The notes beneath the pieces were generated by a model. The model was not told the DNA's origin, searched no databases, and saw nothing but the letters and a program-made list of their open reading frames with translations. Below are positions 28,159-61,953 of a stretch of 64,000 nt of DNA, in pieces; the first letter of the stretch is position 1; each line of letters opens with the position of its first letter. Both the position numbers and the translations under genes were made by a program. The stretch comes from Crambe crambe (taxonomy: Eukaryota; Porifera; Demospongiae; Poecilosclerida; Crambeidae): assembly GCA_963924555.1 (NCBI GenBank), contig OZ004585.1, positions 2,121,488 to 2,185,487 of the forward strand, written 5' to 3'.

Positions 28159-28206
28159 CGGCACATGCATATCACATGACTAGACAAGATACGCCCCCTT
28201 TTCACT

Positions 28207-30440: not shown

Positions 30441-30574
30441 TATACAATATGAGCAGCAGAACCTTGTCACACTGAATATTGATACAATATTAAATTATCA
30501 ATAAATTTTTTAAACAAGAGTGTGTTATAATAGCTATAGTGTTCGTTCTACACGTGTATTCTGCTGCTTTGCAA
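30441..30574. terminator. 3' flank of kinase-kelch gene with AATAAA
   Basis: AATAAA at 30500-30505, 60 bp after the stop codon, is a candidate poly(A) signal on the plus strand. Confidence 0.45.
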
Positions 30575-31990
30575 CTATTTGTGGGCACTCCCAGCCCTGG
30601 CAGGAGGTACAAGCATTCCAGTGGACCCAGAGAGACTTTCATTCTCGATGCTGTGACGAGTGATGTTGTCTTGCTGGAGAGACTCGGGAGGGGGATGATC
30701 TGGCTGATAATGATTGCTGAGATGAGGGGCATGGTTCATGTGGAGGGGTGGAGTGGTCTCGTGGAGGGGGGATGCCATTGGGAGTTGATGAATAAGCATG
30801 GAGGGGAGATGAGTGAGGTGTGACGTGTACAGGTGGTGGAGGGATGGAGGGAAGTTGTTGCTGCCTCTGCATAATAACGAATACAACTGCTGTCACTATT
30901 TATACAGTGGAACCCCAGTACTTTGGCTTCAAAATATCACTCTGATTATTAAGGTATAGGGTCTTCCAAATTGCTAGCCACACTCACTGCTTCAGCAATG
31001 AGTTTGAGTTGAGCTATGCAGGTCTCCAGTCTCCTGTTGTGTTCCTGGAGGACATGCACCCTCCCCTGCAGTGCCGAGTTCCTCTGCTTCAAGGCTTCTT
31101 CTGCTCCAGCTGGAGCCTCTGAAGTAAACTGGCGGTGCTTCAAGTGATGCGACAAATATGGCAAGAATTTCACATGCATGCACCTGCAACACATCAGCAA
31201 CTACTTAAACTGCAGCAGCTAAAAATCTGACAATAATGATGAAAAAACAAAAACAAAAAATAAACAAAACCAAACAAAACAAAACAACTTTTGTTATAGC
31301 TACGAATGAATGTAATGCAAAAACGATAATTCAGACACCAAAAAGATTACAGGGAAAGTAGCTAGCAAGAATCTTAACCATTGAGATTAACAATTAAAAA
31401 AACTTCTGAAGTGATGCTGACCTGGTGGTTTCTTTTAGCTTATTGAGGGAAGCTTCCATGTCTAGACTTCCATTCTGGTTTGGCCACATGAGGTGACCAT
31501 ACCCAGTCTCATTGATGGTCATGAAACTCGATGCAGCGAGCCTTGATATCATATTACCACCAAATCTGTATATAATTTTTTTATGAAGTGTATTAATACA
31601 GTGGAACCCCCCAACAATGGACAGCCTCTTTCCCATAGCATGTAGTACAGTTTTAACTTCCAAAAAAAAGACAACCTCTCTACAAACTTGAAAGGCTGAT
31701 CTCAAAGTGTGAGTGTATACTTGCATACGGGGGTCAATGTTCTTTCCTACTCCAGGTCCTCCCCCTCCCCCTTCTTCTCTCTTCCAAGTGGACCTCAGAT
31801 CCTCAGTGACAGTGAACCGTCATCCTGGATGATTTTCCTCCCTGTGGATGGAGTTGGCATGGTTGCAAGATAGCTACCCCTCGCATTTACTTTTCCTCTC
31901 GGGAGACCTGAAAATACTTGCATCAAGCTCGGGACCTCATATTTGAGTCGGTTCAAAGAGTTCTCTGTTTATTCTTTTGTCTGGATCTGC
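30575..31990 (-). pseudogene. Decayed coiled-coil gene C-terminus, copy 2 (dystrophin/dystrobrevin-like?)
   Basis: Minus-strand pieces in order. Around 31890-31990, RINRELFEPTQI then a TGA. At 31422-31568, MISRLAASSFMTINETGYG and WPNQNGSLDMEASLNKLKET, ending at a GTCAGC donor. At 30988-31186, a coiled-coil exon with EEALKQRNSALQGRV and HVLQEHNRRLETCIAQLKLI, ending at a GTGAGT donor. At 30575-30866, a Pro-rich last exon after a TGCAG acceptor, in phase. VLQEHNRRLE recalls the VLEDHNRQLE heptads of dystrophin and dystrobrevin C-termini; this is from memory. A 2-bp loss shifts the Pro-rich exon, and a 5-bp loss relative to copy 1 alters the start of the coiled coil. Probably non-functional; another coiled-coil family is possible. 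Confidence 0.5.
31599..31705. mobile_element. Truncated pogo-like element
   Basis: TA plus CAGTGGAACCCCCC marks the left end. The interior (ACTTCCAAAAAAAAGACAACC, CTACAAACTTGAAAGGCTGA) matches 27298-27460, but the right end is lost. Confidence 0.6.
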
Positions 31991-32213
31991 TTCAGCTCCT
32001 TTGGAAGGATTTGAAGAAATCCCTCATTTCATCTAGTGTGGTACTTACCTTGAAGTATGTTATAATTCTGATATTGTGGTTTCTGTATTTCTCTTAACAG
32101 ACTCGAGCCCAATCTCTAGTCCACAGCACAATTTAATTTTTTCTATTCTGAAACTCCATTTGTTGATTACACTTGTCCACACCAAGGTACTGTTAAGTGT
32201 ACTAACCAATATA

Positions 32214-32510
32214 CATGATAAATGGAAAGATATGGAAATGATTATCAAGCACATTGATGATGGCTGCCTCAACCGATGGCGATCTGTTTGTGATTTGCCT
32301 CTAGCTGTGGGTCAACAGTTACTATCTAGGTATCTATTGGAAGAATTAATCACAAAAATCAGTGTTCCAGAGACTTATGGTTTGAAATCAGTCGAATGGA
32401 GACACCTCAATCCTCCAGTATGGTAGTACAATTGCCTGGAAGTGAACTGATGTGGTAGTGAAAGGGAATGTGTGTTCCCGTTCTGAAGGATATCTACAGC
32501 TATGTCCAGC
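32214..32510 (+). pseudogene. Kelch-gene tail relic, copy 2
   Basis: IIKHIDDGCLNRWRSVCDLP parallels LVKHFDDGYFERWRSVCASP of the kinase-kelch gene. Downstream, LPGSELM parallels its LPATNELMVV. Several stops and indels. Together with the minus-strand coiled-coil relic it forms the second copy of a ~2-kb unit. Confidence 0.6.
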
Positions 32511-32654
32511 TTTTGCACAGTACATAATCATTACAATTCAATTCAATTCATGTTTGAATAAGCCACAGGGGCACAAACACGTAGGAGTGAAATAAAAGCC
32601 CCCGTCAGGTGGGCATAGTGGAAAACAGTGCAATGATAGGTGTAAGGTCCAGGG

Positions 32655-33712
32655 AAGGTGATGTAAGGGAGTAGTGCTGGTATTGTGAGTAGTGCTGGTA
32701 TTGGGAGTATTGCTGGTATTGTGAGTAGTGCTGGTATTGTGAGTAGTGCTGGTATTGTGAGTAGTGCTGGTATTGTGAGTAGTGCTGGTATTGGGAGTAG
32801 TGCTGGTATTGTGAGTAGTGCTGGTATTGTGAGTATTGTGAGTAGTGCTGGTATTGTGAGTAGTACTGGTATTGTGAGTAGTGCTGGTATTGGGAGTAGT
32901 GCTGGTATTGTGAGTAGTGCTGGTATTGTGAGTATTGTGAGTAGTGCTGGTATTGTGAGTAGTGCTGGTATTATGAGTAGTGCTGGTATTGTGAGTATTG
33001 TTACAATACCAGCACTACTCACAATACTCACAATACCAGCACTACTCACAACAATACCAGCACTACTTATAATACTCACAATACCAGCACTACTCACAAT
33101 ACTCACAATACCAGCACTACTCATAATACTCACAATACCAGCACTACTCACGATACCAGCACTACTCATAATACCAGCACTACTCATAATACCAGCACTA
33201 CTCACAATACCAGCACTACTCACAATACTCATAATACCAGCACTACTCACAATACCCACGATACTCACAATACCAACAATACCAGCACTACTCATAATAC
33301 TCACAATACCAGCACTACTCACGATACCAGCACTACTCATAATACCAGCACTACTCATAATACCAGCACTACTCACAATACCAGCACTACTCACAATACT
33401 CATAATACCAGCACTACTCACAATACCCACGATACTCACAATACCAACAATACCAGCACTACTCACAATACTCACAATACCAGCATTACTCACGATACCA
33501 GCACTACTCATAATACCAGCACTACTCATAATACCAGCACTACTCACAATACCAGCACTACTCACAATACTCACGATACTCACAATACCAACAATACCAG
33601 CACTACTCACAATACTCACAATACCAGCATTACTCACAATACAATACCAGCACTACTCATAATACCAGCATACTCACAATACCAGCACTACTCACAATAC
33701 AGTAGCTACTCA
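32655..33712. repeat. Minisatellite that switches strand at ~33003
   Basis: Units of 18 bp (TAGTGCTGGTATTGTGAG) with extra GTATTGTGAG half-units run from 32655 to 33002. From there the array is the reverse complement (CTCACAATACCAGCACTA type) to 33712, so the whole is an imperfect giant palindrome. The long open frames on both strands are repeat translations (Ser-Ala-Gly-Ile-Val or Ile-Pro-Ala-Leu-Leu). It may lie in the intron upstream of the exon at 33738. Confidence 0.9.
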
Positions 33713-33737
33713 CAGTCGGGCGTGCAATTAGCATCAG

Positions 33738-34129
33738 CAATACTACCACGAGGAGAGGTCAAAGTACAAGGCTCAGCCAGCGATTATTCCTGCACATACT
33801 GGGATCGGTGTCGAATGTGACGTGTTGAACGAATGTGTTGAACAGTATCGGAATCCTACAATGATTCAGTACAGAGAAGCACTCGTTTCCAAAAAATCAG
33901 ATTCAGAAGCGGCGAATCTAATCAAACCATTGGAACCAAGCCAGCTGGAACCAGTAAGTTCTATAATTAGTTATAGTGCCATCATTATAGCTGTAGGATA
34001 TGCCAACTTTTATTATTGGGGCGGGGAAGGGAAAGGGTCGATCTGGTCACATTTCATAGTAAACTTGTTCATTAGCCAACACAATTTGTCTTTCAGGAAC
34101 CTGGGAAAGTGTGCTTTCACAGTTTCTAA
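33738..34129 (+). CDS. Last two exons of an unidentified gene
   Basis: Exon 33738-33953 follows a CATCAG acceptor and ends at a GTAAGT donor. It is 72 codons, phase 0 at both ends, starting QYYHEERSKYKAQPAIIPAH and ending LEPSQLEP. Exon 34097-34129 follows a TTTCAG acceptor and reads EPGKVCFHSF then TAA. The joined frame is soluble and hydrophilic, without a signal or membrane segment. I do not recognise the family. Upstream exons would lie beyond the flipped minisatellite or are lost. Possible real gene end or relic. Confidence 0.45.
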
Positions 34130-35080
34130 CTATAGTTGTGCCAGTCATAGCAATGCTGCATGATGATATAGAATGAACCTTGGTATACATTAATTACTGA
34201 CTATATGAACGTGACCAGACCCTTTTCTCTCCCACTGCCCCAAGGTAAAGGGTCAGACTGTAAGACCATAAACTTTTCTGTTTCTATACATTAAATTACT
34301 TGATTATCCTGTGGTCATGCCACATTGATGTGTGGTTATCTATGAATGAACAGTTTACACAAAAACTAACCACTTCATGGCTAGATAAAACTTTCATAGT
34401 TACAAGTTAGTCTTTAAAAAGACTTACGCCTCGGCACTGGTAGCTAGCTATATGGAACAATGACACTGTTGAAATTCAAATTTGAAGGGTCTATGTTAAA
34501 TAAATCAGATGATTCAAATGTCAATTCCTGTGATGAATTTACTTGTGTCTCAGTGCCCTTCTCAAATGCTCACTTCCGTGCAAGGCCTGTATAGTCTTTG
34601 ATTTCATTGCTCTTGCCTTTCCTGATGTCTAGCTGATCACATGTGATCGCCTCTGGCTTGTAGTCGTTCTCTCAGTGGTCCTGGCTTTCTTATTCAACTA
34701 GATATAGACTGTTGTCTTTGCTGTTACTTTCTGATAATCCTGGCTTTGACTAGACTGTTGTCTCTGCTGTTACTTTCTGGCATGTAGTCGGTGTTCTCTC
34801 ACGCTCTTAGCCTTTCCTGTTGAGTGTTGCCTGGTGTGGCCTGTAGGATGCACATACATGTATCGCCTAGACTGTCGTCTCTGCTGTTACTGTCCGTTAC
34901 TTTCTCGCTGTCTCTCCATCGATTCTCTGAGATTTCTACGTGTAAATCTATAGTGGCTAGGCCTACTCCATTTTTTTTTCAATTGCACGTGTGCGTGCAA
35001 TGTATTGCGTGGGTGTACATGAACGCGCAGTGTGCTACTATTAAGACGTACATACCACGCATAGTCGATCCCAGCACTGC
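34130..35080. other. Spacer with imperfect repeats
   Basis: About 34660-34910 holds three diverged copies of CTAGACTGTYGTCTYTGCTGTTACTTTCT. A GCCTCGGCACT word at 34428 matches the arm of the hairpin at 35081. No gene seen. Confidence 0.45.
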
Positions 35081-35104
35081 GCCTCGGCACTTCGGTGCCG
35101 AGGC
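35081..35104. other. Perfect 10-bp stem with TTCG loop
   Basis: GCCTCGGCAC, TTCG, GTGCCGAGGC, followed by an A-rich tract (AAAAAACAACAACAAAATAC). In RNA this would be an extra-stable UUCG tetraloop hairpin. It could be the 3' end of a mobile element or part of an RNA; neither is shown. Confidence 0.5.
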
Positions 35105-35171
35105 AAAAAACAACAACAAAATACACACAAAAACAACTAATGATAATATAAAGTATATGAAAAGTAATTAA

Positions 35172-35972
35172 GGGGGCTCCGACATCCCGCCCACGTGCTT
35201 ATTTTGCAGGTTGCTAGGGACTGATATCGAGACTACCGACACTTGCAGAGATAAGCTACAAAGACCACAGTGGAGGACTTGTCTATGGTCACTGATCTCC
35301 CAAGAACTAGGAAAAACAGGGCAGTTACCGAGAGGCTAGCACCGCTTGAAGCTAAAAGGACTAAAATTAATACTTCTTTTTTTGTGCTAAACTTACAGTG
35401 TTGAAAATAGTTTCACATCCTACGGATCGAATTGTCTATATATAATCTAGCTTCCTAGATACACGAATTTCTAGCTTTAGAATGCACTACTGAAAGCGCT
35501 GATCACTTCAGTTTTTGAAGATTTCCTAATTCCATCCGTAGCTGTCTACCCCAGACCATGAGGAAACAACATGCCAAGTACGGACTCTTCTGGATTTACG
35601 GGCATCTGCAAGTGTACCGATACACAGCCCCACCCCTGCCCCACCCACTATATCTGGCAGGATGCTGATTCTTTCTACCGTTGGTCGAGTGATCGCTCAT
35701 GCCACGGTGAGGTGGCCCTGATTGTGGATCCAGGAGAGTCTGGCTCTCTCTCTCAACGCTATACTTCGGACTCGTCTGGATCTCAACACCTCTTTGTACC
35801 GGAGATCTGCTAGCCCAGACTAGCTCTGGAGTTAGTCTCGCTCGGGCCAGACTCTTCCGGTGACACTGGCTCTGGAATAGGCTCTGAACCTGGCGCTGGA
35901 AATAATTATACATTGCCTACATTATTCATTATTTTTCTTCAGGAATGCGCACGTAGTCATGTCGGAGCCCCC
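35172..35972. mobile_element. 801-bp TTAA-flanked non-autonomous element
   Basis: The ends GGGGGCTCCGACAT and ATGTCGGAGCCCCC are perfect 14-bp inverted repeats, each bordered by TTAA (35168-35171 and 35973-35976). TTAA duplication fits piggyBac or Kolobok elements. The inside lacks a transposase; a small plus frame at 35571-35813 is not convincing. It adjoins, and probably inserted into, the transposon-like minus-strand relic beside it. Confidence 0.8.
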
Positions 35973-35976
35973 TTAA

Positions 35977-37549
35977 TACTTTTTTTCTTTTTGCATTGTT
36001 GGAAGTTGCAGAGGGAATGGTATGCTTCCTCTTTGAAATGAGTGGCTTTTTGTCTGAAAAACATGGCTTGCAAATAGGATACTTGTCCTGAAATTCTGGT
36101 GAGTCTTCACTGAAAATATTAAGAGACCCACAATGAAAACACGAAGGTTCATGATTGGTATTATAGTAGGGAATTTCAATTGGTGATCGACAACTCAAGT
36201 TCATCCATGTGAACACTTTATGTAAGACTGAAATGTCATCATGCTCAATCTCCTGAACACCACTTCCACATGAATACTGAATATCTTGTAGTATTGAATT
36301 CAGTTCAACTTTTCCCCTTCATGCAATAAATCAGTCGCCGTTTGTCATACTCACTGAATTACATTGCTAGCATTCTTGGCAAACTGTGCTGTTGGGATAA
36401 AAGGCATCCCACTACTCTTGTTTTCTCCTCCTTCAGTGAGGGGCGGTGCTCTTCTGTGGTTTCCACCTTTCCATATAGTGACTTGAAATCTTTATAATGC
36501 TCCCCATTGGGTATAGGATCAGGTAAATGAAATAACGACATCCACTGGCAATCTAGGGGGCTTGCATACACATGAGGATGTCTTGTACTTTTTTATACTA
36601 AATATATAGTGGTGCACCTTGCAGTGATGCTTAATAAAATCCTTGTATTTTTTCTTCGATTCAATTTCCACTTTAGTTGAAATTTCAGGAGTAAAAGTTT
36701 CATCAACAGTAAGAATATTCTTCCATAATTCATCCATCTGGGACTTTGATGCAGCTTCAAAGATTTGGAAATTGGTACCCTTTAATTGTAATCAGACAAA
36801 GAGATGTTGTAGGAGAGCTTTTGTTGGGGCCACTCCATCAAGAATTTCAGTTGATCCAGTTATGTTTTCAGGGATATCGATAAAAAGACTAACACTAGGT
36901 GTCATGGAAAACTTGGTAAAATCATGGTCTCCTATAGTGAGCTTTTGGGCAGGAGATACGAGAACTTGCTACCCTCTTTCGACCCCTACCGCAGGGTAAC
37001 CTGGCTCTCCGACTTTCACAACGTGTTTGTCATCCATGCTAATCTCTATATTGGATATAGCAAATTCTCGAAATAATGCTGATGCATAATGATAATCAAT
37101 GTGGAATTTACAAAATTGCCGTGCTTGTACCATAAACTTGATGAGAAGGTGGCCTTTATGAGGAATACCAGCAGCTGAAGCAACGCGCTCACTGGTTCCA
37201 TATGACTGCCAATATTGTATTCTTACTGCCTCTATGAGTTATTGCCATCTCTCTGTTTCAGTCTAATGGGCCAGTCTAATGGCCACACTCAACCATAATA
37301 AAAAAGGTATGATACAAGGGGATCTTCTTGCTCAGAAGTAAGGGCAGTAAGTGGGCCAAGATTGGTGCCATGCCGTACTAGACCCTTTTCCAAAGTCTTA
37401 CGGGGAATATTGAACTTGGCAGCAGCAGAGTAGTTGTTCACTGCTGACATTGCAGAAATCATCTTCATTCTTCCACTGCTTATGCTCAGCCATCCTGCAC
37501 AAAAAGAACAGCGATAGGAGCTCTTTCTTACCACCAATCGAAACTGCAA
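35977..37549 (-). pseudogene. Relic of a large transposon-like gene with psq-type HTH
   Basis: Minus strand, in order. 37549-37289 has NNYSAAAKFNIPRKTLEKGL then TALTSEQEDPLVSYL, typical of a pipsqueak-type helix-turn-helix. 37035-36795 has MDDKHVVKVGEPGYPAVGVE, a stop, then LTIGDHDFTKFSMTPSVSLF. 36737-36359 has MDELWKNILTVDE, KHHCKVHHYIFSIKKYK, PPRLPVDV, HLPDPIPNGEHYK and TTEEHRPSLKEEK. 36216-35977 has CFHCGSLNIF, YPICKPCFSDKK and a basic end. Stops and frame changes separate the pieces. From memory similar proteins are multi-copy and transposon-like in sponges and cnidarians; class not assigned. Dead. Confidence 0.55.
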
Positions 37550-37575
37550 TCTATCAGTTACACAATGGCAGTGGT

Positions 37576-38048
37576 CAGGTGCGTAGCCAGGATTTTATCA
37601 TAGGGTGCTTAGAAATATCCGCGCACTGGCGTGTGGAAATTCTTTCTAGCCATGCCCACTTCCCTAACCACACCCTTTTGGATAAACTGCGCCCACTTGA
37701 TGTACACTAGCAAACCAAGATCTAGTTAAGAATGTTGGAGAATTGTAGATGATGAGGGTGACGTGTGGCAAACTCTTCTACTAGCTACTTCCTCTGTGAA
37801 TGCAGAGCATGGTTGATTAGCTTACCGTCCTAGTCGACCTTTGAACTCATAGTAGCTAGCTATAGTGTTAGCAGAAGTATATAGTTAGCTACAAAACAAA
37901 CATAGTTTTTACAGTTTAGCTCAATTTAAGCTTGGGAGAAAATTATTAGTAAGATTATTAGTAAGTACGTAGATCGGTAAATCTCGGTCTGTTAGCTATT
38001 TACACATCCTGCTTGAGCCCCCTGAGCCCCTCCCTGGCTACGCACCTG
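37576..38048. mobile_element. Non-autonomous element with CAGGTGCGTAGCCAGG ends
   Basis: The left end CAGGTGCGTAGCCAGG and right end CCTGGCTACGCACCTG are perfect 16-bp inverted repeats. Length is 473 bp with no gene. A clean target duplication is not visible. The ends resemble those of the element at 61414-61577, where a 7-bp duplication suggests hAT. Confidence 0.75.
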
Positions 38049-38476
38049 CGGGGTGGCATTAGCCTAGGATCTCCTTGGGTCTGATCGCCAAAACCGCAAG
38101 CTGGAGAGAAAAAGCACCCCTTCTTTCAACGCTCACCTAGACTTCAGCTAACACACTACTTATTGGTGTCAAAATGAAGCCCATCCCATGCTGTTTAAAA
38201 TGTCCATGCTCTCAAATCTCCACTGACAACTGTTAATGAGATACAATTGAATGAGCTTATCTTTAACTGGCAATAATAGGCATATTTACGCTACTGGTGT
38301 GGTTCTTGAGTTTGGTGATGGGTACACATACTTACCAACCATCCAGATTTCCCTGGGATTGGATGTCTTATCCAGATATCCCGGAAACAACAGAAAAATC
38401 CAGGGAACGTTAATATGATACGCACGCATGGGAGCATGATCACGTAGGTGCTCTTTAATTGGATTGTTTGTTAGAC

Positions 38477-38821
38477 AATGGTTATGCTACCAGCAGATCC
38501 TGCTTTGAAGAAGCCTAAGATTGCATGTGAATACAAAGCTGAGTGGTCTAAGCCAAGTAAGAAAGGAATTAATTATGCTTTTTGTACTGTGTGTAATGTG
38601 TTGACCTTTCTACTGCTGGAGGAGGACAACATAAAGTGGAGCGCCACCTAAAGACTACTAAACACATGAATCTGCTTAGCCAGATGAAGACTCAACCTTC
38701 TTTGCCTATGATTTTGGAACGTGCAGCAGGTAAAAGCATAGAAGATCAAGCAATGGCAGCAGAAATTTACTTTGCTAAGTTTGTTGCAGAACAAAAAAAG
38801 ACTGGGACAGGTGATTATTGA
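38477..38821 (+). pseudogene. hAT-type transposase N-terminus relic with BED-like zinc finger
   Basis: YKAEWSKPSKKGINYAFC-type sequence leads to a CTVC pair. After a frame change it continues HKVERHLKTTKHMNLLSQMK and LERAAGKSIEDQAMAAEIYF, ending in a stop at 38819-38821. Cys-Cys then His-x-His spacing fits a BED/TTF-type finger at the start of hAT-like proteins. The catalytic region is missing. Confidence 0.55.
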
Positions 38822-39591
38822 TTCATTAGTTTCAACAAGTGGCCGAAAAGAAGTGAAGACCTATGGTGAGAAGATATGGTATGAGGAAAATAATCTGGTC
38901 TAAAATTGGTGCCTTACGCTAGTTGTGCCCTGCTGCAAGGAGTAGTTCGGATTCACTATAATATACTGCAGAAATTTTGAAATTTAATATGCGCATACTT
39001 GAAGCCATATATAATGCTGATAGCCTAAAAAACTCCTCTTGGTGGCTTGAATGCATATATTTTTTCTGCCTCAAAGGCTATCAGTTAATTCGATCCTGCC
39101 AAATATTATAGATTGCACGTACGTTTGATCCATCAATAATCATTATTACCTTCCCATTTGCTGAACGAGGTTGTGCACCTAAGGCTAGTTGCCACAGGCT
39201 TATCATGCACATGTACTGCTATATTTAGCTATAAAGCTCATTCAGGTGATATAAAGTATATTAGTACATGCAGTGGGACTTTTAATAAAGGATTAGCTAT
39301 TATGAAGAAGATTCTCTATATAGAGGCAACTTACTTTTGAAAGGTGTCCTTTGTTATTGTACGTACCCTTCCTTTATTGGAGGTTCCATTGTGGAGTAGG
39401 AACAGGGCAGGCCAGGGGGGGCCTACCCCCCCCCCCCCCCCCCCCCCCCACCAATATCTTAGAAGGAGGGCTGGCCCACCCAATAATTGCCCAGCTACTT
39501 ACTAAGGAAGAACTTTTTTGGACATTACTGGCTGTGACACATGATTATAACATTTTGCTAAGTTATTTGCATGCCAGTGCGTTTGTTTAGT
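38822..39591. other. Spacer with a poly-C tract
   Basis: No gene seen. A run of about 28 C lies at ~39424-39451 (i-motif / G-quadruplex potential, likely slippage-prone). Confidence 0.5.
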
Positions 39592-39675
39592 ATGGCCACA
39601 GTTTCACCCACAGACCCTCATGAAATAATTTCTGCTCTGCTGGAAAGTCACAAAGCCATTTTACATACTCTTGGA
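39592..39675 (+). CDS. Possible 5' exon of the PARP gene
   Basis: ATG 39592 opens MATVSPTDPHEIISALLESH and continues to HTLG before a weak GTCAAT donor at 39676; unspliced it stops at 39685. A phase-0 splice to the acceptor before 40100 would give an in-frame start for the PARP gene. The donor is poor, so this is only a candidate. Confidence 0.25.
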
Positions 39676-40099
39676 GTCAATATCTAATTATCAACAAGAC
39701 TATGAATGACATGTTATTAGATTATTGACTTTATGAATACTCATAACATACGTAGCTACTAGTTATCATAATCCCTACAACCCTACAACCTTTTCTTAAA
39801 GCTTTACTTTTGGTTTCCTCCATTTCCTCCATTTCTGCCATTCCGCTTTTTCTCCTTGCCCCCTCTATTACTTGTTATCTAGGCACTACATGTTATCTAA
39901 GTGACCCATGTACAAGAAACTAACCACTTCTTGTTTGCTAGCTGTTCAGCAGGTTCTTTCCCCCCTAAAGTTGCTAAGCAACTAGCTAATAAAAAAAAAA
40001 TGCACTGTGCTGATAAGTGCCCAAGAGCAGGTGCTGACCAGTGATATAAGACACTGGTTTTTCTACTAAGCTATGATCTAATAATTATTTATCTAATAG

Positions 40100-43000
40100 A
40101 CTCCTCATAGTCAGTCAGAACAGTCTGTATCCCACGTATCTAATCCTGAGGGTATACCAACATTTGGTCAGTCAGCAGAACATTTACGGGCATCAGTGGG
40201 AGCTAATAATTTCAGTCCAACAATTAAAAATATATTCCCTGCAAATGGGATGTCTCATCCTCAAAATCAGACAAGTCTACAGAGCAGTATGCATTCAAAA
40301 CCACCCATTGACTCTAAAGCATTGATGACAGAGCTAGCATCAGAGGCAGTCGCTTTTTATCGAAGTCGAACAAGATCACAGAGCTTTGTTGATTCCAAAT
40401 CATCCATTCCTTCCAAACCGGAGTCATCTTTAGTGGAAGTTATTTCTAATCAAAGTCGAACAAGATCACAGAGCTTTGTAGATTCTAAACCTTCCAAACC
40501 ATTGATCACAGGGTCATCATCAGCAGAAGTCACTTCTATTCAAAGTCGAACAATATCACAGGATTCGAAACCATCCATTCCTTCCAAACCATTGATAACA
40601 GAGTCGTCATCAGTGGAGGTCACTTCTAATCAAAGTCGAACAAGATCACAGAGCTTTGTTGATTCCAAATCATCCATTCCTTCCAAACCGGAGTCATCTT
40701 CAGTGGAAGTTACTTCTAATCAAAGTCGAACAAGATCACAGAGCTTTGTGGATTCAAAACCATCCATTCCATCGATAACAGAGTCATCATCAGTGGAAGT
40801 CCTTTCTAATCAAAGTCAAACAAGATCACAGAGCTTTGTTGATTCCAAACCATCCATTCCTTCCAAACTGGAGTCATCTTCAGTGGAAGTTACTTCTAAT
40901 CAAAGTCGAACAAGATCACAGAGCTTTGTGGATTCAAAACCATCCATTCCTTCCAAACCATTGATAACAGAGTCATCATCAGTGGAAGTCACTTTTAATC
41001 AAAGTCGAACAAGATCACAGAGCTTTGTGGATTCCAAACCATCCATTCCATTGATAACGGAGTCATCATCAGTGGAAGTCACTTCTAATCAAAGTCGAAC
41101 AAGATCACAGAGCTTTGTAGATTCAAAACCATCCATTCCATTGATTACGGAGTCATCATCAGTGGAAGTCACTTCCAATCAAAGTCGAACAAGATCACAG
41201 AGCTTTGTAGATTCCAAACCATCCATTCCTTCTAAACCATTGATAATGGAGTCATCTTCAGTGGAAGTCACTTCTAATCAAAGTCAAACAAGATCACAGA
41301 GCTTTGTGGATTCAAAACCATCCATTCCTTCCAAATCATTGATAATGGAGTCATCTTCAGTGGAAGTCACTTCTAATCAAAGTCGAACAAGATCACAGAG
41401 CTTTGTGGATTCAAAACCATCCATTCCTTCCAAACCATTGATAACAGAGTCATCATCAGTGGAAGTCACTTCTAATCAAAGTCGAACAAGATCACAGAGC
41501 TTTGTGGATTCCAAACCATCCATTCCATTGATAACGGAGTCATCATCAGTGGAAGTCACTTCTAATCAAAGTCGAACAAGATCACAGAGCTTTGTAGATT
41601 CCAAACCATCCATTCCTTCCAAACCATTGATTACAGAGTCATCATCAGTGGAAGTCACTTCCATTCAAAGTCGAACAAGATCACAGAGCTTTGTGGATTC
41701 CAAACCATCCATTCCTTCCAAAACATTGATTACGGAGTCATCATCAGGGGAAGTCACTTCTAATCAAAGTCGAACAAGATCACAGAGCTTTGTAGATTCC
41801 AAACCATCCATTCCTTCCAAACCATTGATAATGGAGTCATCTTCAGTGGAAATCACTTCTAATCAAAGTCAAACAAGATCACAGAGCTTTGTGGATTCAA
41901 AACCATCCATTCCTTTGGATTCAAAACCATCCATTCCTTTCAAACCATTGATAACAGAGTCATCATCAATGGAAGTCCTTTCTAATCAAAGTCAAACAAG
42001 ATCACAGAGCTTTGTGGATTCAAAACCATCCATTCCTTCCAAACCATTGATAACGGAGCCATCTTCAGTGGAAGTCACTTCTAATCAAAGTCAAACAAGA
42101 TCACAGAGCTTTGTGGATTCCAAACCATCCATTCCTTTCAAACCATTGATAACAGAGTCATCATCAGTGGAAGTCCTTTCTAATCAAAGTCAAACAAGAT
42201 CACAGAGCTTTGTGGATTCAAAACCATCCATTCCTTCCAAACCATTGATAATGGAGTCATCATCAGTGGAAGTCACTTCTAATCAAAGTCGAACAAGATC
42301 ACAGCATTCAAAACCACCGATTTACTCCAAACCAGCCATCATGGAGTCATCAACTTCCATTCAAAGTCGAATGATATCACAGAACTTTGTGCATTCCAAA
42401 CCACCCATTCCATTGATCACAAAGTCATCATCAATGGAAGTCACTTCTATTCAAAGTCGAAATATATCACAGAGCATTGTGCATTCCAAACCATCCATTC
42501 CATTGATTACAGAGCCATTATCAGTGGAAGTCACTCATCTCCCTACTACCATAACAAATGTACAAGAGAAATTATATCATCATTTCAAAATGGTAGGGGG
42601 AATCAAAGGCCAGCCTGCTGTTCACATCACTGATGAAGCACAGTATGCTTGCATTAATTTTCAAAATACACAATCAGCTCAAAAAGCTGTTTCTATGCTG
42701 AATGATAGCATAATGGATGGTATGACAATCGAAGTCAAGATGATACATGTCAGTCCAAATGCCTTATCCTCTGAGCAGAATTGCAAAAAGATTCTGAAAT
42801 TGGATCCCTGTCAATGGAACACTTGGATGCTTGTAAATCCGATCAGTGGAACAACTATGTTTCGAGATACAATGTCACCTTTTGATAGCAACCCAAATGT
42901 GGTTGTTGAACCAGCTTATGATGAACAGAGTATAATATTTTCAGGCAAGTCTGATGCTGTCAAACATGCTTATTCAACTCTTGAGCGACATTTGAATAAA

Positions 43001-46000
43001 TACCTCCATATGGACAGGTAGGTTTTCAGTCCGACAGCTGCTAGCTATCTGTGTAGGCAACCCTTTACCAATTATATATTTATTATGCATTCATATTATA
43101 CACTATAGCCTAATGAAGGAAGCTCTGGTGAAATTGAAGCCATCCTTGCCAACTGATATCAATCAGAAATTTGGTGTGTATATTGTTAACTATCAGAAAA
43201 GTGAGTCGAGTATTCAACTTGAGGGTCCCATATCTCTCATTGAGAAGGCTCATAGTGACATTAAGAATCTCGTGGGAAGATTGCTTTCTAAAGAAGTGTT
43301 TTTTGAAACAGAGTATCAAGTTCATCATCTCAAAAAGGCAATGGAACAAATCAAAGCTCCAATTCACATTGGTTGTCCAGAGTCATCACAGAGAAAGCGG
43401 GTAGTATTGTTTTCGTTTGATTCCATCAGCCTTCAGAATTCAGCTCACCAAATAACTCAACTTCTTTCCATTATTTCTTCACCTCTTGGATGCAAGCCTG
43501 AAAAAACCAAGTACTTGGAGTTATATAAAAAGGATTTTTTATCCAAGCTTCCTGCTAAAGTCACTTTCTGTGAAGATAGTGTGATACTCACTGGGATATA
43601 TAGTGAAATTCAGGAATCAAAGAAAGAAATTGATACTCAAGTCTTTTGTGGATTATACAGTGGAAAATTTTGTTATCATGGGAAACCTTTTAGTGAATTA
43701 ATTGAAGAAACCGTTCTTAAGCCTTTCAAATCGAGAGAATCGACATTCCAATATGATATCTCTGTACCACCTGTTCAAGATAAAAGCAGTAAGCAAGTAA
43801 TAACCATACATGTTTTCTGCAGAAATCGTGATATTTGGGAGCAAATATGTCAGTCACTTGAAGACTTAAATCCTAGCTCTCAGTTCTATCATTTACCACA
43901 CATGGATGCTGAAAAATTAATTAACAATGTGAAAGAGCAACTTGAAAACAAGTATCAAGTCAGAATCATGAAAAACCGAGCTTCTTCTATTACTATTAGT
44001 GGTTTGAGCAAAAAAACAACGCAACAATGTTATGATGAGATAGAGCAGTTAATCGAGTCAAAATTGATCATTGAAAAATACATACCTGTTGACTCCCAAG
44101 CATATAAGCTCTTGGAGTTATATCAAATAGAGCTTGCAGAGTTGAGGAGAGAGTGCTCAGAACTAACTGTCCTTCCTCCAGATAAGGATGCTAAGAGTAG
44201 CATAAGAATCAAGGGATTGAGCAGCCAAATCAGGCATGCCATTGAGGAACTCAGTAATTCCTTTATACTTCTTGATAAAAACCTATCTGTCATTGAATTT
44301 GACCTCTCCTGCCCATCTATACTGTTTGAAATGTGGAGCCGAAGATGGAATCGAATGAAACAGCAAGTTAAAAGATCTAAAATCTATTTTACTTTCAGCA
44401 AGTTGACTCAGGCTGGCAGTGATGATCACAAGATTAATATCAAATTTGAAATTCTTGGAAGTGAAAAAAATAAATTAGAAGAATTTTCTACTGCTATCCA
44501 GTCTGAAAGTGTTCAGACTGAAGAAAGGGTTATCACTTTATCACCTAACGGCACAAAATGCTTGCTTAAAGAAAAAGCTGTAAATACTATGAATTATCTG
44601 TATACTGTTATCAATTTTAGTATTGGAAAAATTGATGAAGACTCTAATAAAGTCACTATATACGTCCCCAAGAAAGACAGTAAGAATCTTAATGAAGCTG
44701 AGAAGCTGATTCGTAATCTTGTAGATGGCCTTGTTGATATTAACGATTATATAGATTTTGATGATCCAGTCATTGGATTCATATTGCTCTCACCAGTTGA
44801 ATCAAAGCCTTGCATTGAGTCTGCCAATGCTATTGCTAAACTCCGTCAGGTCTCTGTGCAAGTGGTGGAAGAGCCACATGTACGCCTTCGCATCAATGGT
44901 TCAGAGTCTGGTATAGCTCATGTGAAACCACTGATAAAGTCTGCTGTAATTGAAGTGATAGAGAAGAGTATTGGACAGATACAGTTTGCTATTGATCCAC
45001 TTTATACACCTTTGCTTTCAGCATCTAGCTTTTCAAGATACCAGTCTAAACTTGAAAGGGACTGCTGTGTGGTTTGCTCTTACCCTAAACCTGAGTCTCT
45101 TCCCAAGCAAATAAGTATATCTGAAACTCCTCAAGGATCTATTTCTTCAGACTTTCAATGGCGGTATGAAGATGATAGTCATGAATTAGTACTTTACTCT
45201 CCTGAAGATTCAAGAACCATTGAGAGTATGTATCAAGCAAAATCCCCCCGTTGTTTGGTTATCAACAAAAAGCAGTATACATTCAATTTCACTGATATGT
45301 ATCAAATTAATACATCCACTCGATTTAAACGTAGAATTGATCGAATTCGAGTCACTACTTCTGAATATCCTCTGGGTACTCAAGGACATGTACCTTCAGT
45401 TCATTGGCGATACGAAAATGATAGTCAAGTATTCGTAGCATACACTCCTGAAGATTCCAGAGATATCGAAAGGATGTATCAAGCAAAATCCCCCTGTTTA
45501 TTGATCATAAACAGAAATGTGTACAGCATTGATTTCACTCAAATGCATCAGATCAATACATTTACTGGGTTTAAACGTAAAATTAATCGACTTGAAACCG
45601 TTCCACTACCTAAAATGAAACAAAAAGAAAAAGATGAAGAAAATGAAAGGGAAAAGCAGTCAAATGATATTATACCTTTTACTCTACGAGGTCTTGAAAA
45701 AAACCTTCCCACTGCAAAAGAGAAGTTATATGCTGCACTGGAGAAAAGATTAGAGTCTAAAGTGTTCCAGTCCCTTCCAAAAAATATAACTCCAGCCCTA
45801 AGAAAAAAACTCCAGGAGATTGCAAGTCAGAACTTTGTAGTATCTTCATTTGAGAAGAGATCAGATGGAAATGAAGTATTGAAACTAAAAGGGGTTAAAT
45901 TCAAAGTTTCAGCTGTAATCCATGAAATCCATGAGGAAATAATCACATCATCAGGATTTGAAGATGTCCTGGACTTTGCATTTCCACCAGAATGGGAGCA

Positions 46001-46598
46001 ACAAGTTGATAACTGTGAAATCTTCCCAGTAGGTAAAGAAACTCCAGAATGGAAAGATATTGAGAAAATATTTGATATACCATTTCACAAAATTTGTTCT
46101 ATCACTCGTATACAGAATAAATGGCTATGGGAGAAGTATGCTATTCAAAAGAAACGATTAGATCGAAAGAACGGAGGATGTGTGAATGAGAAAGAGCTTT
46201 TTCATGGCACAAGAAAAAATGATCCAAAGTTGATATACAATGGTGAAGATGGCTTTGATATGCGATATGGAGCCAAGGGAACGTGGGGTGTGGCTAACTA
46301 CTTTGCAGTTAAAGCTGAATACTCTCATGGTTATGCTTACTCAGCCTCTCCTGATGGAGCCAAAGAAATGTTTCTAGTCAAAGTGCTGACAGGTGATAGC
46401 TACGAGTCAAAACCTGACTGTACTCTGCGCATGCCTCCAGCCAAGCCAACAACTAAAGCTCAGGGAGGTGACGTCCAGTTTGCTCAGATGAAATACGACA
46501 CTGTAAAAGGTCATACTCGTGGCTCTGATGTGTACATGACGTATGATAATGACAAAGCCTACCCTGCATACCTCATCAAATATTATAATGCTAGCTAA
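40100..46598 (+). CDS. PARP-family ADP-ribosyltransferase with Ser-rich repeats, RRM-like, KH-like and tandem WWE domains
   Basis: Exon 40100-43017 follows an AATAG acceptor and ends at GACAG then GTAGGT. Exon 43109-46598 follows a CTATAG acceptor; phases match (6408 nt, 2135 aa plus a missing 5' start). Order: 23 tandem units of ~30-33 residues (SRTRSQSFVDSKPSIPSKP type; 40361-42535), an RRM-like domain (~42536-42750), a long middle with KH-like repeats ending in SAIE- or SDIK-type helices (~42770-45100), two WWE domains (~45145-45350 and ~45395-45595), and a catalytic domain (~45960-46590). Catalytic marks: ELFHGTRKNDP, YGAKGTWGVANYFAVKAEYS, and YPAYLIKYY where polymerising PARPs carry Glu. 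With Ala there, mono-ADP-ribosylation is expected from family knowledge. RRM + KH + WWE recalls PARP10/14-type proteins of innate immunity, but no macrodomain is seen. Confidence 0.85.
40361..42535 (+). repeat. Coding minisatellite, ~23 units of 90-99 bp
   Basis: Units encode S(R/Q)TRSQSFVDSKPSIP with or without SKPLI, then TESSSVEVTSNQ. Length variation is in whole codons, so the frame is kept. The last three units are diverged. Unit 17 holds an internal DSKPSIP duplication. Confidence 0.9.
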
Positions 46599-48417: not shown

Positions 48418-48835
48418 CATGCCAGTTCCATAGATTTTGCTGGTTTCATCATTCCATGGGTGGATTTGTTCCATGCCGGGTTCCACTGGTTCTGTAGGTT
48501 CTGCTATTTCCACTCCACATGTCCTAACTAGCACTACTATTTCAACTTCCCTAAGAGATCACCGTCTTCAAGACCACTTGTTCTTGGCCCATAGGTGGGC
48601 AGGTTTCACTATACATGTTGATGATTAAATACTGCAACCATAATCATGATTAATAATGTCACCTTGCTATCATAAAATGTAACAAACTGAAACCAAAGTT
48701 ACATATAGTCGCTGTGATAACAAAAATAGTTTCTTCAAGAAGTAGCTAGTCCAGCTTGCTAGCTAGCAACACAGCTTTGAGATCATCAAAAACTAAGTGC
48801 TGTTTAAGAACACAACGAAAATGTTATTAGCTCTC
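48418..48835 (+). promoter_or_regulatory. Conserved upstream block of receptor copy E
   Basis: Same element order as at 15226-15664, including CCACTCCACATGTCCTAACT, AACTGAAACCAAAGTTAC, TTCTTCAAGAAGTAGCTAGT and TTTAAGAACACAACGAAAAT. Confidence 0.45.
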
Positions 48836-50645
48836 ATGTACATGTACATGGCTATATTATTGTTACTTGGTTATGGTTGCTGTGTCATGCACAGAAGACT
48901 ACAGTCCAAGTTGTTCTTATGAATCAGGATTGAATATTCAACAGAATGCTTATGGCGATGGTTTCTTGTCCAATGACTCTGGAATGGAATGTCCTCCAGG
49001 ACTCTTTTGTAACAACAGGACATGTATGTGTGCTCACTATCATTATCCTTATGACAGCATCAAGTGTGATGAAGAAAAGGGCACTTCTGCAATCTTGGAT
49101 TGTTACTGTGCCACATTCGATGACAGCAAGAATGTAACTGAAATTGGTGCATGCATATAATACTGTAACATTAATAAGAGTGGTGATGATAATATGTACA
49201 AATCTCTTACATGGAATGACTCAATAATAACATGCTCATCATTCAACAGAGTTGGAACACTGTGTGGAAGATGTCAGCATGAACACTATCCCTTGGCATA
49301 CTCTTTTAACTTGACTTGTATCAAATGTTCTCACATTGGTTGGAACTGGGGTAGGTACATCATGGCAGCTTCCCACTAACACTATTCTGCTTCTTTGTTT
49401 TATTCTTTGAAATCAATGCTGTTACTAGTCACTTGCATCCAGTCATCTGGTGCAGTCAGGCTCTTTCAATGTCAGCTATGTCACAAATGCTGTTCTTACA
49501 TACAAGTTTGCAAAAAATACATGATATTCATAAAAACAACGCTTGCACTTTATGGACTATGGAACTTTGATTTCTTCAGGACATTTTACTCAGATATCTG
49601 TCTTGGGATAGGTTTTCTCCCGACCCTAGCTTTGGACTATGTTATTGCTGTGTGCCCTCTCCTCCTCATGGCTATCACCTACCTACTTGTAAAACTGTAT
49701 GACAAGAACTACAGAGTCATAGTTATCATGTGGAACCCATTTCGAGCTATATTTTTCCTTTTCAAGGAAAACTTTGACGTCCGAACATCAATGATTGATT
49801 CATGTGTTACTTTCTTTTATTAATCAAGTATCAAATTTCTCAGTGTGACATTTGACTTACTTGTCCCAACACCAGTATACGAACTCCACCAGGATGGCTA
49901 CAACTACACTCTTGGACTGTACTATTCAGGAGATATTGAATACTTAGGCAAAGAACATCTCCCATATGCTATCCTGGCCATAATTGTGTCAATAGTCTTT
50001 GTTGTCTTACCACTCACTGTTCTTGCTCTTTATCCTTTTGCTTTCTTCCAGAAGTTCCTGAATTGCATTCCTGTTTGCTGGCACATCTTGCACACCTTTA
50101 TGGATGCCTTTCAAGGTGTCTATAAAGATGGGACAGAATCAGGCACTAGAGATTGTCGATGGTTTGCAGCTGCCTTCTTCTTGGTATGAGTGATCAGTTT
50201 AGTGGTTTATGCATTCGCTCACAATATCATCTGCATCTATCTTGCTGCTGTCGTTCTCTTGCTTCTAGTTTTGCTGATAGTTAACGTGCAACCTTTCAAA
50301 GCTCCAGTTGCTCATTACTCAAAGATCAATGCCACTTTTTTCTCACTCCTTATCTTAGTGTGCATTGTTGTATGTGGTAAGGGTGTAGCAGGTATCAAAG
50401 CTCAACAATTTCTTCAAGTTTTTTTTGTACTTTTAACTTTTGCTGCCATCACTCCTCTTCTCTACACATTGCTATTGATTCTCCACTGGATATACTCACA
50501 TAGTGGATTAGGATCAAGGCTTGCTAGTAGTATGATCAGATTCAGGAGAAGAGGCTACAAATTGATAAATGGAGAGGAATCATGTGGCTCTATGGCTCAT
50601 GTATGTGATCATACCTCAAGTCGAAATTTGGCCACACTTTCATAA
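48836..50645 (+). pseudogene. Tandem receptor family copy E, broken
   Basis: ATG triplets at 48836, 48842 and 48848 open the usual MYMAILLLLG start, but a 2-bp loss (GGTTATGGTTGC) shifts the frame in the signal peptide. Further lesions: a shift after GAC in the ectodomain (stop ~49158), a 4-bp deletion in the first membrane segment (GCAGCTTCCCACTAAC, ~49370), a shift near 49822 and a TGA at 50187-50189 replacing the Arg of VRVMG. Long open stretches between them, including 50190-50645, show recent decay. It pairs with copy C. Confidence 0.85.
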
Positions 50646-51924: not shown

Positions 51925-52550
51925 GTCAAATTTCTCAGTGTGACATTTGACTTGCTTGTCTACAACTACGCTTTTGGACTGTATTACTGAGGGGACATTG
52001 AATACTTTGGCAAAGAACATCTCCCCTATGCTATCCTGGCCATAATTGTGTCAATGTTGTTGTCTTACCAGTCATAACTGTTCTTGTTCTCTATCCTTTT
52101 GGTTTCTTTCAGAAATTCCTGAATTGCATTCCTGTTAGCCAGCACATCTTGCACATTTTTATGGATGCCTTTCAAGGTGTCCATAAAGATGGGACAAAAT
52201 CATGTACTAGAGATTGTTGATGGTTACAGCTGTCTTCTTAGTATGAGTCATTGATTTTGTGGTTTATTCTTTGCTCATAATATCATCTTCTTCTATTTTG
52301 CTGCTATCATTCTCTTAATTCTAGTTTTGCTGATAGTTAATGTGAAGTTCCAGCTGCTCATTATTGATCAATGCTTAATACTTTCTTTGAGTTTTTAATG
52401 TACTTTTAATTTTTGCTGGCATTGTTCCTCTTATAAGATCAGATTCTGGAGAAGAGGCTATGAGTTGATAAATGGAGAGGAATCATGTGACTTATGGCTG
52501 ATGTACATGATCATAACTCAAGTGGAAATTTGGCCATATTTTCTCGATAA
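51925..52550 (+). pseudogene. Receptor relic F
   Basis: This starts at VKFLSVTFDLLV and carries many indels, including loss of the PTPVYELHQDG region, a TGA at 52244-52246 at the conserved Arg position, and collapse of the KINATFF and penultimate membrane regions. It ends like copy D. It has no LTR and is the empty-site counterpart of relic D. Confidence 0.8.
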
Positions 52551-52642: not shown

Positions 52643-53056
52643 GAAAGCTTCATCATTCCATGGATTTCACAATTTGTTCCATGGGTTCCACTGGTTCTGT
52701 AGGTTCTGCTGTTTCCACTTCACATGTCCTATAACAGCACTATATTAAACTTCCCTAAGAGATCACCGTCTTAGAGACCATTGTTCCTGGCCCATAAGTG
52801 GGTACAATACACGCAAGTGTTTTACTGTACATGTCGATACTGCATGTTTGCATAATTTATTACTCATTGTCATCTTGCTATAGCTACATTTTCATAAATG
52901 CAACAAACTGAAACCAAAGTTATGATAACAAAAATAGTTTCTTCAAGAAGTAGCTAGCTAGTCCAGCTTGCTAGCTAGCAACACACAGTTTTGAGATCAT
53001 TAAATAACTAAGTGCTGTTTAAGAACACAAAGAAAAAGTTATTAGCTCTCATATAC
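52643..53056 (+). promoter_or_regulatory. Conserved upstream block of receptor copy G
   Basis: Same order as at 15226-15664: GGGTTCCACTGGTTCTGTAG, CCACTTCACATGTCCT, AAACTGAAACCAAAGTTATG, TTCTTCAAGAAGTAGCTAGC and TTTAAGAACACAAAGAAAAA before the start. Confidence 0.45.
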
Positions 53057-54873
53057 ATGTACATGGCTATATTATTGTTACTTGGTTATATGGTTGCTGT
53101 TGCTTGCACAGAAGACTATAGTCAAAGTTGTTCTTATAAATCAGGATTGGATATTCAACAGAATGCTTATGGCGATGGTTTCTTGTCCAATGACTCTGGA
53201 ATGGAATGTCCTCCAGGACTCTTTTGTAACAACAGGACATGTAAGTGTGCTCACTATCATTATCCTTATGACAGCATCAAGTGTGATGAAGAAAAGGGCA
53301 CTTCTGCCATCTTGGATTGCTACTGTGCCACATTTGATGAAGGCAAGACCGTAACTCGAGTTGGTGCATGCATGTTTAACTGTAATAATAATAAGAGTGG
53401 TGATGATAATGTGTATAACTCACTTACACAGAATGACTCTATAATGACATGCTCATCATTCAACAGAGCTGGAGCACTATGTGGACAATGTCTGCCTGAA
53501 CACTATTCCTTGGCATACTCTTTTAACTTGACTTGTATCAAATGTTCTCACGTTGGCTGGAACTGGTGTAGGTACATCGTGGCAGCTTATCTCCCACTAA
53601 CGCTGTTCTGTTTCTTTGTTTTATTCTTTGAAATCAATGCTGTTACTAGTCACTTGCATCCAGTCATCTGGTGCAGTCAGGCTATTTCAATGTCAGCTAT
53701 GTCACGAATGCTGTTCTTACATACAAGTTTTCAAAAACACCCTATATATCTGATAATTATAAAGATAACACTTGCACTTTATGGAGTATGGAACTTTGAT
53801 TTCTTTAGGACATTTTACTCAGATATCTGTCTTGGAATAGGTTTTCTCCCCACCCTAGCTTTGGACTATGTCATTGCTGTGTACCCTCTCCTCCTCATGG
53901 CTATCACCTACCTACTTGTAAACCTGTATGACAAGAACTATAGATTCGTTATTGCCATATGGAAGCCATTTCAAGCAATATTTTTTATTTTCAAGAAAAA
54001 ATTTAACATCCGAACGTCCATGATTGACTCGTGTGTTACTTTCTTTTATTTATCAAGTGTAAAATTTCTCAGTGTGACATTTGACCTACTTGTCCCAACA
54101 CCAGTATACGAACTCCACCAGGACGGCTACAACTACACTTTTGGACTGTACTATTCAGGGGACATTGAATACTTTGGCAAAGAACATCTCCCCTATGCTA
54201 TCCTGGCCATAATTGTGTCAATAATCTTCGTTGTCTTACCACTCACTGTTCTTGCTCTCTATCCTTTTGCTTTCTTCCAGTGAATTGCATTCCTGTTCGC
54301 TGGCACATCTTGCACACCTTTATGGATGCCTTTCAAGGTGTCTATAAAGATGGGACAGAACCAGGCACTAGAGATTGGCGATGGTTTGCAGCTGTCTTCT
54401 TCCTACTACGAGTCATGGGTTTTGTGATTTATGCTTTTGCTCACAATATCACCTTCTTCTATATTGCTGCTATCTTGCTCATACTTCTAGTTTTGCTGAT
54501 AGTTAACATGCAGCCTTTCAAAGCTCCAGTTGCTCATTACTCAAAGATCAATGCCACTTTTTTCTCACTCCTTATAATTATATACATTGTTGTATGTGGT
54601 TTGGATGTAGCAAGTATCAAAGTTCAACAATTTCTTCAAGTTTTTTATGTACTTCTGATTTTTGCTACTATCATTCCTCTTCTCTATACATTGCTAATGA
54701 TTCTCCACTGGATCTACTCACATAGTGGATTAGGATCAAGGCTTGCTAGTAAGATCAGATCCGGGAGAAGAGGCTACAACTCCATAAGTAGAAATGGAAA
54801 GGAATCATGTGACTCTATGGCTCATGTACGTGATCATCATTCAAGTGGTAGTTTGGCAACATTAACACAATAA
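53057..54873 (+). pseudogene. Near-intact tandem receptor copy G with one 7-bp deletion
   Basis: ATG 53057 gives the conserved MYMAILLLLGYMVAVA. The frame is open through the ectodomain and the first five hydrophobic segments to FAFFQ, where loss of AAGTTCC (TTCCAGTGAATTGC, 54278-54286) creates an immediate stop. The remaining ~195 codons (54280-54873) are open and end RDHHSSGSLATLTQ. This is the only disabling change seen, so it could be a recent null allele or an assembly error. CGATGG(TGT to TGG) also changes RDCRWF to RDWRWF. Confidence 0.8.
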
Positions 54874-61577: not shown

Positions 61578-61953
61578 CCTGGTCTCGATCCACTAGCTAT
61601 GTCATTGTCAGAAATGTAGCTTGCTATGTATTCCAGTTTGTTATAGAATGCTGCAACCACATAAAAGCTTGCTATGATAACAAAATGGTGTCCTTTGTGA
61701 AAATTTTATGAATTAGCTGGTGCTAGTATAGCTATCATAACATGAAGAAATTCCAATAATTAAAGCTAGAAAATAGTCAACATATACATTGTACAATTTC
61801 GTGAATTAGCCAAAATTATTCAGAAGAAAGTCTACAAAAAGATAATGATTTCTAGATTTCTCAGAAAATAGAATGAGAATCATGCACTGTTAAAAGCATG
61901 GTAGAGAAGCCTTGAAAGACAATTACTTATTACAGTTTAGCTACATAGCTATC
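61578..61953. other. 5' flank of copy I
   Basis: No clear copy of the C/E/G/H upstream block. It more closely resembles the 5' flank of copy A (CATAACATGAAGA..., TAGTCAACAT...), so A and I may form a second regulatory subclass. Confidence 0.4.

Follow-up and report, generated by a model that had tools for sequence, protein, structure and literature searches.

A PARP14-like gene of the sponge Crambe crambe that lacks a macrodomain and carries a tandem Ser-rich repeat array

PARP14 is interferon-induced and antiviral and has been duplicated repeatedly, in sponges among others (PMC13224862, PMC4245714), and the macrodomain has been described as the key domain of PARP9, PARP14 and PARP15 (PMC4245714). 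In a single chain PARP14 unites a writer, a reader and an eraser of ADP-ribose, and the role of the attached eraser is hard to probe in vertebrates. Six PARP14-like proteins, each with at least one macrodomain, were described in Amphimedon queenslandica (Perina et al. 2014, PMC4245714). Here we analysed a gene on the forward strand of Crambe crambe, at positions 40100–46598 of a window of 64,000 nucleotides (the whole stretch of DNA under analysis; assembly GCA_963924555.1, contig OZ004585.1, positions 2,121,488 to 2,185,487), that groups with the PARP14-like genes of its own genome, has a 19-residue linker where four of its relatives have a macrodomain, and encodes a 23-unit repeat array ahead of its RRM. 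As one genome holds the same scaffold with and without the macrodomain, it offers a natural comparison. In addition, an ADP-ribosyltransferase has here acquired a repeat array, and recent copies of the gene already differ in the length of that array.

The window gene shares with human PARP14 (BAL2/ARTD8) an N-terminal RRM, a conserved and putatively KH-like middle, WWE before the PARP domain, a catalytic triad of the His-Tyr-hydrophobic (H-Y-hydrophobic) type and the best catalytic-domain match among solved structures. It differs in lacking macrodomains, of which PARP14 has three, in having two WWE domains instead of one and one detectable RRM instead of three, in its long Ser-rich array, and in Val rather than Leu as third triad residue. 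Human PARP10 shares with it an RRM, an H-Y-hydrophobic PARP domain and the lack of a macrodomain; however, PARP10 was the weaker sequence match, and Pfam found no UIM in either open reading frame (ORF) of the window gene at E<=1. To our knowledge, PARP10 carries no such array. Two adjacent WWE domains also occur in DTX1, DTX2, DTX4 and PARP12, but the Deltex proteins are ubiquitin ligases and PARP12 is tabulated with four zinc fingers besides its two WWE domains (PMC9189837). The Amphimedon queenslandica proteins are likewise several paralogs, among which WWE is present in some and RRM in some, but all have at least one macrodomain, and the available portion of that report mentions no repeat array (PMC4245714). 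The literature searched, which was available in part and whose scope left out most subscription journals and preprints, showed no PARP14-type gene that both lacks a macrodomain and carries an array of this kind. The type of enzyme is known, and its domain arrangement is an unusual variant.

Gene structure, domains and the catalytic triad

Two long open frames on the forward strand (40100–43021 and 42996–46598) are the two exons of one gene, and joined they give 2135 codons that are free of stops from 40100 onward. A frameshift between the two ORFs was ruled out in favor of a 91-nt intron common to paralogs. The features used below are as follows; residue 1 is the opening codon of exon A.

40100–43017, + strand: coding exon A, with a short lead-in, the 23-unit array, the RRM and a conserved segment after the RRM
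40364–42523, + strand: array of 23 imperfect Ser/Pro/Lys repeats, units of 24–41 aa, consensus NQSRTRSQSFVDSKPSIPSKPLITESSSVEVTS
42530–42730, + strand: RRM (Pfam RRM_1)
43018–43108, + strand: intron of 91 nt, GT-AG, phase 2, its position and phase common to the twin gene and three C6 paralogs
43109–46598, + strand: coding exon B (KH-like stretch, two WWE domains, PARP catalytic domain)
43110–45089, + strand: conserved region of 660 aa, KH-like, with sub-threshold matches only
45090–45146, + strand: 19-aa linker at the site of the paralog macrodomain, from alignment to four paralogs
45153–45344, + strand: WWE domain 1 (Pfam)
45399–45590, + strand: WWE domain 2 (Pfam)
46089–46583, + strand: PARP catalytic domain, with PARP14 and PARP15 as the closest structures solved
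46203–46205, + strand: triad His (HGT), H2005, from alignment to PARP14
46299–46301, + strand: triad Tyr (ANYFA), Y2037, from alignment to PARP14
46530–46532, + strand: third triad position, Val (SDVYMTY), V2114, opposite PARP14 Leu1782
46566–46568, + strand: Ala of YPAYLI, opposite the Glu of PARP14 YPEYLI, not the catalytic position
C8:2230763–2236941, same strand as the window gene and ~69 kb downstream: twin gene, 93% identical, 20 repeat units

A first-pass annotation made from the letters of the sequence had described a single gene at 40100–46598, with a PARP domain, a 23-unit repeat, RRM-like and KH-like domains and tandem WWE domains. The single gene stood, as two open frames parted by the intron, and most of the domains were borne out. 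The PARP domain scored 45.6 bits against a Pfam cut-off of 26.7, and PARP14 chains were its best solved match (E ~1e-20 with the single sequence, 5e-34 with a profile), with PARP10 chains weaker (E 4e-5 to 6e-5). WWE was matched above threshold in two stretches (101.6 bits in Pfam), a profile of six paralogs spanned both WWE domains of human DTX1 (E 1.3e-12), and both domains show by eye a Trp, a Gln and an Arg in the motif for which such contacts to the ligand are reported (PMC11269756). RRM_1 reached 20.5 bits in the whole ORF, with a cut-off of 20.7, and 24.2 bits when the segment was scanned alone; it was matched by all six members of the paralog alignment.

The KH-like claim was not borne out at threshold. 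The 660-residue region is homologous to four other paralogs (34–52% identity) and to the twin (93%), and it probably consists of several KH-like domains, although its KH matches remained below threshold and no GxxG motif was found in it. KH_1 was touched by three of the six alignment members, and an internal KH profile comparison gave one weak match (probability 20.6%). Against solved structures, the six-paralog profile had two matches at E<=1, neither of them significant: first a plant protein that is not KH (E 0.43), then a KH chain of vigilin (E 0.62). Single-sequence AlphaFold models had a mean predicted local distance difference test score of 34.8 for the KH-like part, which made that model unusable, and of 32.4 for the WWE-PARP part. 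As the KH-like domains of DTX3L have no GXXG and that of PARP14 was found by structure prediction (PMC11080071), a weak sequence signal is to be expected here, which is no proof, and the KH label is plausible but unproven.

The same annotation had placed an Ala (YPAYLI) at the usual catalytic Glu position, implying loss of a catalytic residue, and neither point survived the alignment. This Ala sits 12 residues past the triad site, opposite the Glu of PARP14 YPEYLI, and an alignment check for Glu at the catalytic site found the Val at 46530 there. PARP14, of 1801 residues (PMC13224862), is H-Y-L, with Leu1782 replacing the catalytic Glu (PMC9189837); counting back, Leu1782 falls in SLFVAF, opposite the Val of SDVYMTY, if the 193-residue aligned chain ends at 1801. 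Three C1 enzymes of the same genome read PTIFV[VI]F...AYPEYLI, in which the YPEYLI Glu coexists with a triad-site Ile. Because of the PARP14 alignment and these C1 enzymes we read the window triad as H-Y-V, and a catalytic Ala was ruled out on the same grounds; the YPEYLI Glu is not the catalytic Glu, a likely misreading that is corrected here. The twin is also H-Y-V. Separately, the genome holds at C1:7.31–7.39 Mb (L003, L004 and L005) a cluster of PARP domains of mono-ADP-ribosyltransferase (mono-ART) type with triad Ile and YPEYLI.

The H-Y-V motif fits the mono-ART pattern (clade 3, H-Y-hydrophobic), and in the reading favored below the enzyme would be active. Gly, Ser and Tyr also stand at the spacing of PARP10 Gly888, Ser927 and Tyr932 (PMC9189837), a correspondence by spacing. 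The protein might instead be a catalytically dead pseudo-PARP whose H-Y-V site cannot transfer ADP-ribose and which works as a binder like human PARP13, whose triad is Y-Y-V, with the same third residue, and which is inactive (PMC9189837). PARP13, however, is inactive through its missing His (PMC9189837), which is kept here, as are the nicotinamide-pocket residues. Furthermore, the third position, read by eye, is Val in 10 of 12 PARP ORFs compared within this genome and Ile in the other two, so that Val is a feature of the family and not a sign of decay in the window gene. We consider a dead enzyme unlikely.

Paralogs and descent

Pfam found no macrodomain in either ORF at E<=1, a negative that is limited by the HMMER filters, which discard most matches above E 0.1. 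At the corresponding site, between the KH-like region and WWE, four sister genes (three on C6 and one on C19 at 5.50 Mb) keep a macrodomain that scored 90–107 bits and that spans, with its linkers, about 215–290 aa. The domain is thus present in four of the six members of the PARP14-like group and missing in the window gene and its twin, and the absence of a Macro match, the 19-aa linker and the grouping with PARP14-like genes agree with the PARP10/14-like architecture without macrodomain that had been proposed for this locus. The sisters share the RRM, KH-like and WWE-PARP regions with the window gene (28–57%, 34–52% and 39–56% identity, respectively), and the three C6 genes share its intron, but they differ in keeping the macrodomain, in having two or three RRM stretches, and in that the array was not found in them. 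The macrodomain of L011, the only one of the four that was tested, scored 97 bits against the first and 60 against the second macrodomain of the two-macrodomain PARP14 chain 3vfq, the first of which we take to be MD1. In PARP14, MD1 is the hydrolysing macrodomain (PMC13224862).

In a midpoint-rooted tree of 12 PARP ORFs from this genome, the six genes grouped together (97/98) and the window gene paired with its twin (100/99), the inner order of the six-gene group being left unresolved; a tree of the KH-like region placed the pair beside the three C6 genes. Because of this grouping, the intron shared with the three C6 genes and the KH-region tree, we derive the pair from macrodomain-bearing PARP14-like genes, and the simplest reading suggests that the macrodomain was lost secondarily on the branch of the window gene and its twin. 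The first ORFs of the sisters show two (L011, L013) or three (L012, L016) RRM stretches, and the upstream RRMs were therefore probably lost as well. Pfam on both ORFs found neither a further upstream RRM nor a hidden macrodomain, and when six N-terminal ORFs of paralogs were run by tblastn against window positions 30001–43100 (E<=0.5), four of them matched the single RRM segment with its flanking sequence, and nothing else was matched. The pair thus looks like a branch of the PARP14 lineage in which the macrodomain and probably the upstream RRMs were lost and an array was gained. Elsewhere in the genome, a C13 gene had a weaker Macro match (40.5 bits), and in the PARP genes L018 (C19:3.96 Mb) and L019 (C18:5.60 Mb) the sequence ahead of the WWE part looks, by eye, like a decayed macrodomain. 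Two short frames at C6:6490136–6491158 make up another partial relative of the window gene, possibly a truncated copy.

Outside the array, the window gene and its twin differed with a synonymous divergence (dS) of 0.054 and a nonsynonymous divergence (dN) of 0.032, a dN/dS of 0.59 that was significantly below 1 (Fisher p 0.007, from rounded counts). By segment the ratio was 0.50 in the RRM and KH-like parts, 0.86 in the WWE pair (13 changes) and 0.73 in the rest; against two C6 sisters it was 0.25 and 0.32, at dS >1.2. The high ratio between the twins, together with a continuous homology that stops about 19 nt upstream of exon A and a 5' exon that was not found, would fit one or both copies being decaying duplicates without function. 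Neither copy, however, has a stop in more than 2000 codons, the splice sites of the two match, and their ratio is significantly below 1. Decay is on these grounds unlikely, and the window gene is genuine and probably functional.

The repeat array and the 5' end

The count of 23 units made in the first-pass annotation was confirmed, as were its SQS and SKPSIP motifs, found 21 and 19 times in the lead-in and array; TRSQSF occurred 19 and RxRxxS 14 times in the same stretch. Ten units are 33 aa long and nine are 30 aa, 21 of the 23 are distinct at the amino-acid level, and SQ is present in every window unit and in 19 of the 20 twin units. The composition of the lead-in and array (28% Ser, 9% Pro, and neither Trp nor Cys) suggests a disordered tail. 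A search of the whole genome with the exon-A protein, in which 47 of 52 candidates were scored and low complexity limits detection, found the array in the window gene and its twin only. The suggestion that the repeat is expandable is supported by the 23 and 20 units of these recent duplicates.

We evaluated the reading frame of the array with DNA anchors that were set without regard to frame. The window gene had 22 of them, which by their spacing correspond to 21 of the 23 units and to a degenerate match upstream, and the twin had 19, in 19 of its 20 units. This test replaced an earlier dN/dS of array units that had been chosen by amino-acid pattern and was biased low. All anchors fell in one frame, with spacings that were multiples of 3 in 21 of 21 cases in the window gene and 18 of 18 in the twin. 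The ratio of nonsynonymous to synonymous differences between units (pN/pS) was 0.58 and 0.49 in frame (window gene and twin, respectively). Of the two wrong frames, one gave 1.08 and 1.19, and the second 0.67 and 0.66. The array is coding as judged from these sequences, with a frame signal that is real but modest.

Basophilic kinases recognize RxRxx[S/T] followed by a hydrophobic residue, a pattern that RTRSQSF fits. As the unit itself is repeated, the repeated fit to this motif is no independent evidence, and enrichment of motifs over shuffled sequence was left unused because a tandem array inflates it. The same enzyme might carry no more than a neutral coding minisatellite, which would only link an upstream exon flexibly to the RRM and whose kinase motifs came by chance with the ancestral unit. 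The restriction of the array to a recent pair, the turnover of units (length and order differ between the copies), the absence of RxRxxS from 10 of 23 window and 13 of 20 twin units, and an in-frame ratio only moderately below 1 all agree with this alternative, but the frame kept in all spacings of both copies, the in-frame substitution bias, and SQ in nearly every unit do not. We regard a neutral array as a substantial possibility, if one short of even.

The window gene and the twin are continuously homologous from a point 19 nt upstream of 40100, where both have an acceptor-like TAG; farther upstream the matches are short and scattered (41–48 nt, at 39409–39577). Position 40100 is probably a splice acceptor boundary rather than the start of the gene, and because it follows a likely acceptor (...AG), at least one further 5' exon with a start codon is expected. 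That exon was not found by comparing the window with the twin, and in exon A the two copies share no Met before that of SSMHSKPP, as would be the case if splicing kept the array out of the main mRNA, or if the array lay in a 5' untranslated part, and the mature protein were a plain RRM-KH-WWE-WWE-PARP chain. This is the least likely of the alternatives, given that array and RRM lie in one uninterrupted frame in both copies, that two length differences upstream of the SSMHSKPP Met are in frame (by eye), and that the array has a coding bias.

Proposed activity and other features of the window

We favor, with rather better than even confidence, an active clade-3 mono-ART of the PARP14 lineage that has modules for binding RNA or proteins and for reading ADP-ribose, lacks an attached eraser, and bears a disordered array with repeated sites of basophilic-kinase type. 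The part of this reading that can be taken from the sequence is the H-Y-V PARP domain, the tandem WWE domains, the single RRM, the conserved region at the KH position, the missing macrodomain and the 23-unit coding array. In the proposed mechanism, the RRM/KH-like part would bind RNA or partner proteins, the PARP domain would attach single ADP-ribose groups to itself or to nearby proteins, and the two WWE domains would read ADP-ribose. Lacking the MD1-type eraser, the protein could not erase its own mark, and removal of the mark would fall to other enzymes alone. The array would form a disordered multivalent tail, with a basophilic-kinase-like site (RTRSQSF) and acidic or Ser acceptors in many of its units; phosphorylation or self-ADP-ribosylation along it could tune the recruitment of partners, and gain or loss of units would alter valency. 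We graded the kinase step below the other parts because a change of Arg to Gln abolishes the RxRxx-type site in many units. A role in stress or innate immunity is inferred from the PARP14 family only.

Several results weigh against this reading. Active human mono-ARTs are tabulated with I, L or Y at the third triad position, or with E in PARP3 and PARP4, and Val is absent there among them, occurring in that table in the inactive PARP13, which also lacks the His (PMC9189837). The loss of the macrodomain is read from a midpoint-rooted tree, and genes outside the six-gene group also have no Macro match at E<=0.1 (the C12 gene L017, two C19 genes in L015, and L018 on C19). The KH matches are below threshold (KH_PARP14_8 with E 0.004 and 17.4 bits against a cut-off of 27; KH_11 with E 0.019), and the expected 5' exon is missing from the comparison of the two copies. 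In the array, the frame test is modest since one wrong frame also reaches 0.66–0.67, and the exact kinase motif is not strictly kept, since RxRxxS is missing from many units.

A stronger form of the favored reading would have a PARP14-lineage immune enzyme of an early-branching animal giving up the eraser built into it (macrodomain 1) and gaining in exchange an expandable, kinase-controlled docking array. If this were true, writer and reader would be joined in a chain that does not erase its own mark, and the number of repeats, which varies between tandem duplicates and perhaps between individuals, would determine its multivalency. We offer this exchange as speculation, and consider it unlikely.

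The gene lies among copies of a tandem family encoding Cys-rich proteins of about 600 aa that are probably multi-membrane-spanning, with 81–93% DNA identity among the matches listed and no Pfam match at E<=0.01 in the two copies scanned. Copies of this family were found at the following positions.

Window 1–3760, 6422–8241, 15645–17417, 19163–19722, 48826–50606, 51957–52344, 53052–54857, 57674–59501 and 61924–63732: Cys-rich family
C8:2187747–2195804: Cys-rich family

Two adjacent arrays of 18-nt tandem units (window 32669–33001 and 33025–33714) have reverse-complement units and together form an inverted repeat of about 1 kb. A purine-rich array of GAGACT type extends over about 2.3 kb (window 23510–25876), and GC and AT skew are 0.40 each at 24–26 kb. 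Finally, an ORF at window 28180–30039 encodes a protein kinase (Pkinase, 145.8 bits); it also has a long stretch resembling a coiled coil, and its C-terminal tail is kelch-like by eye only.

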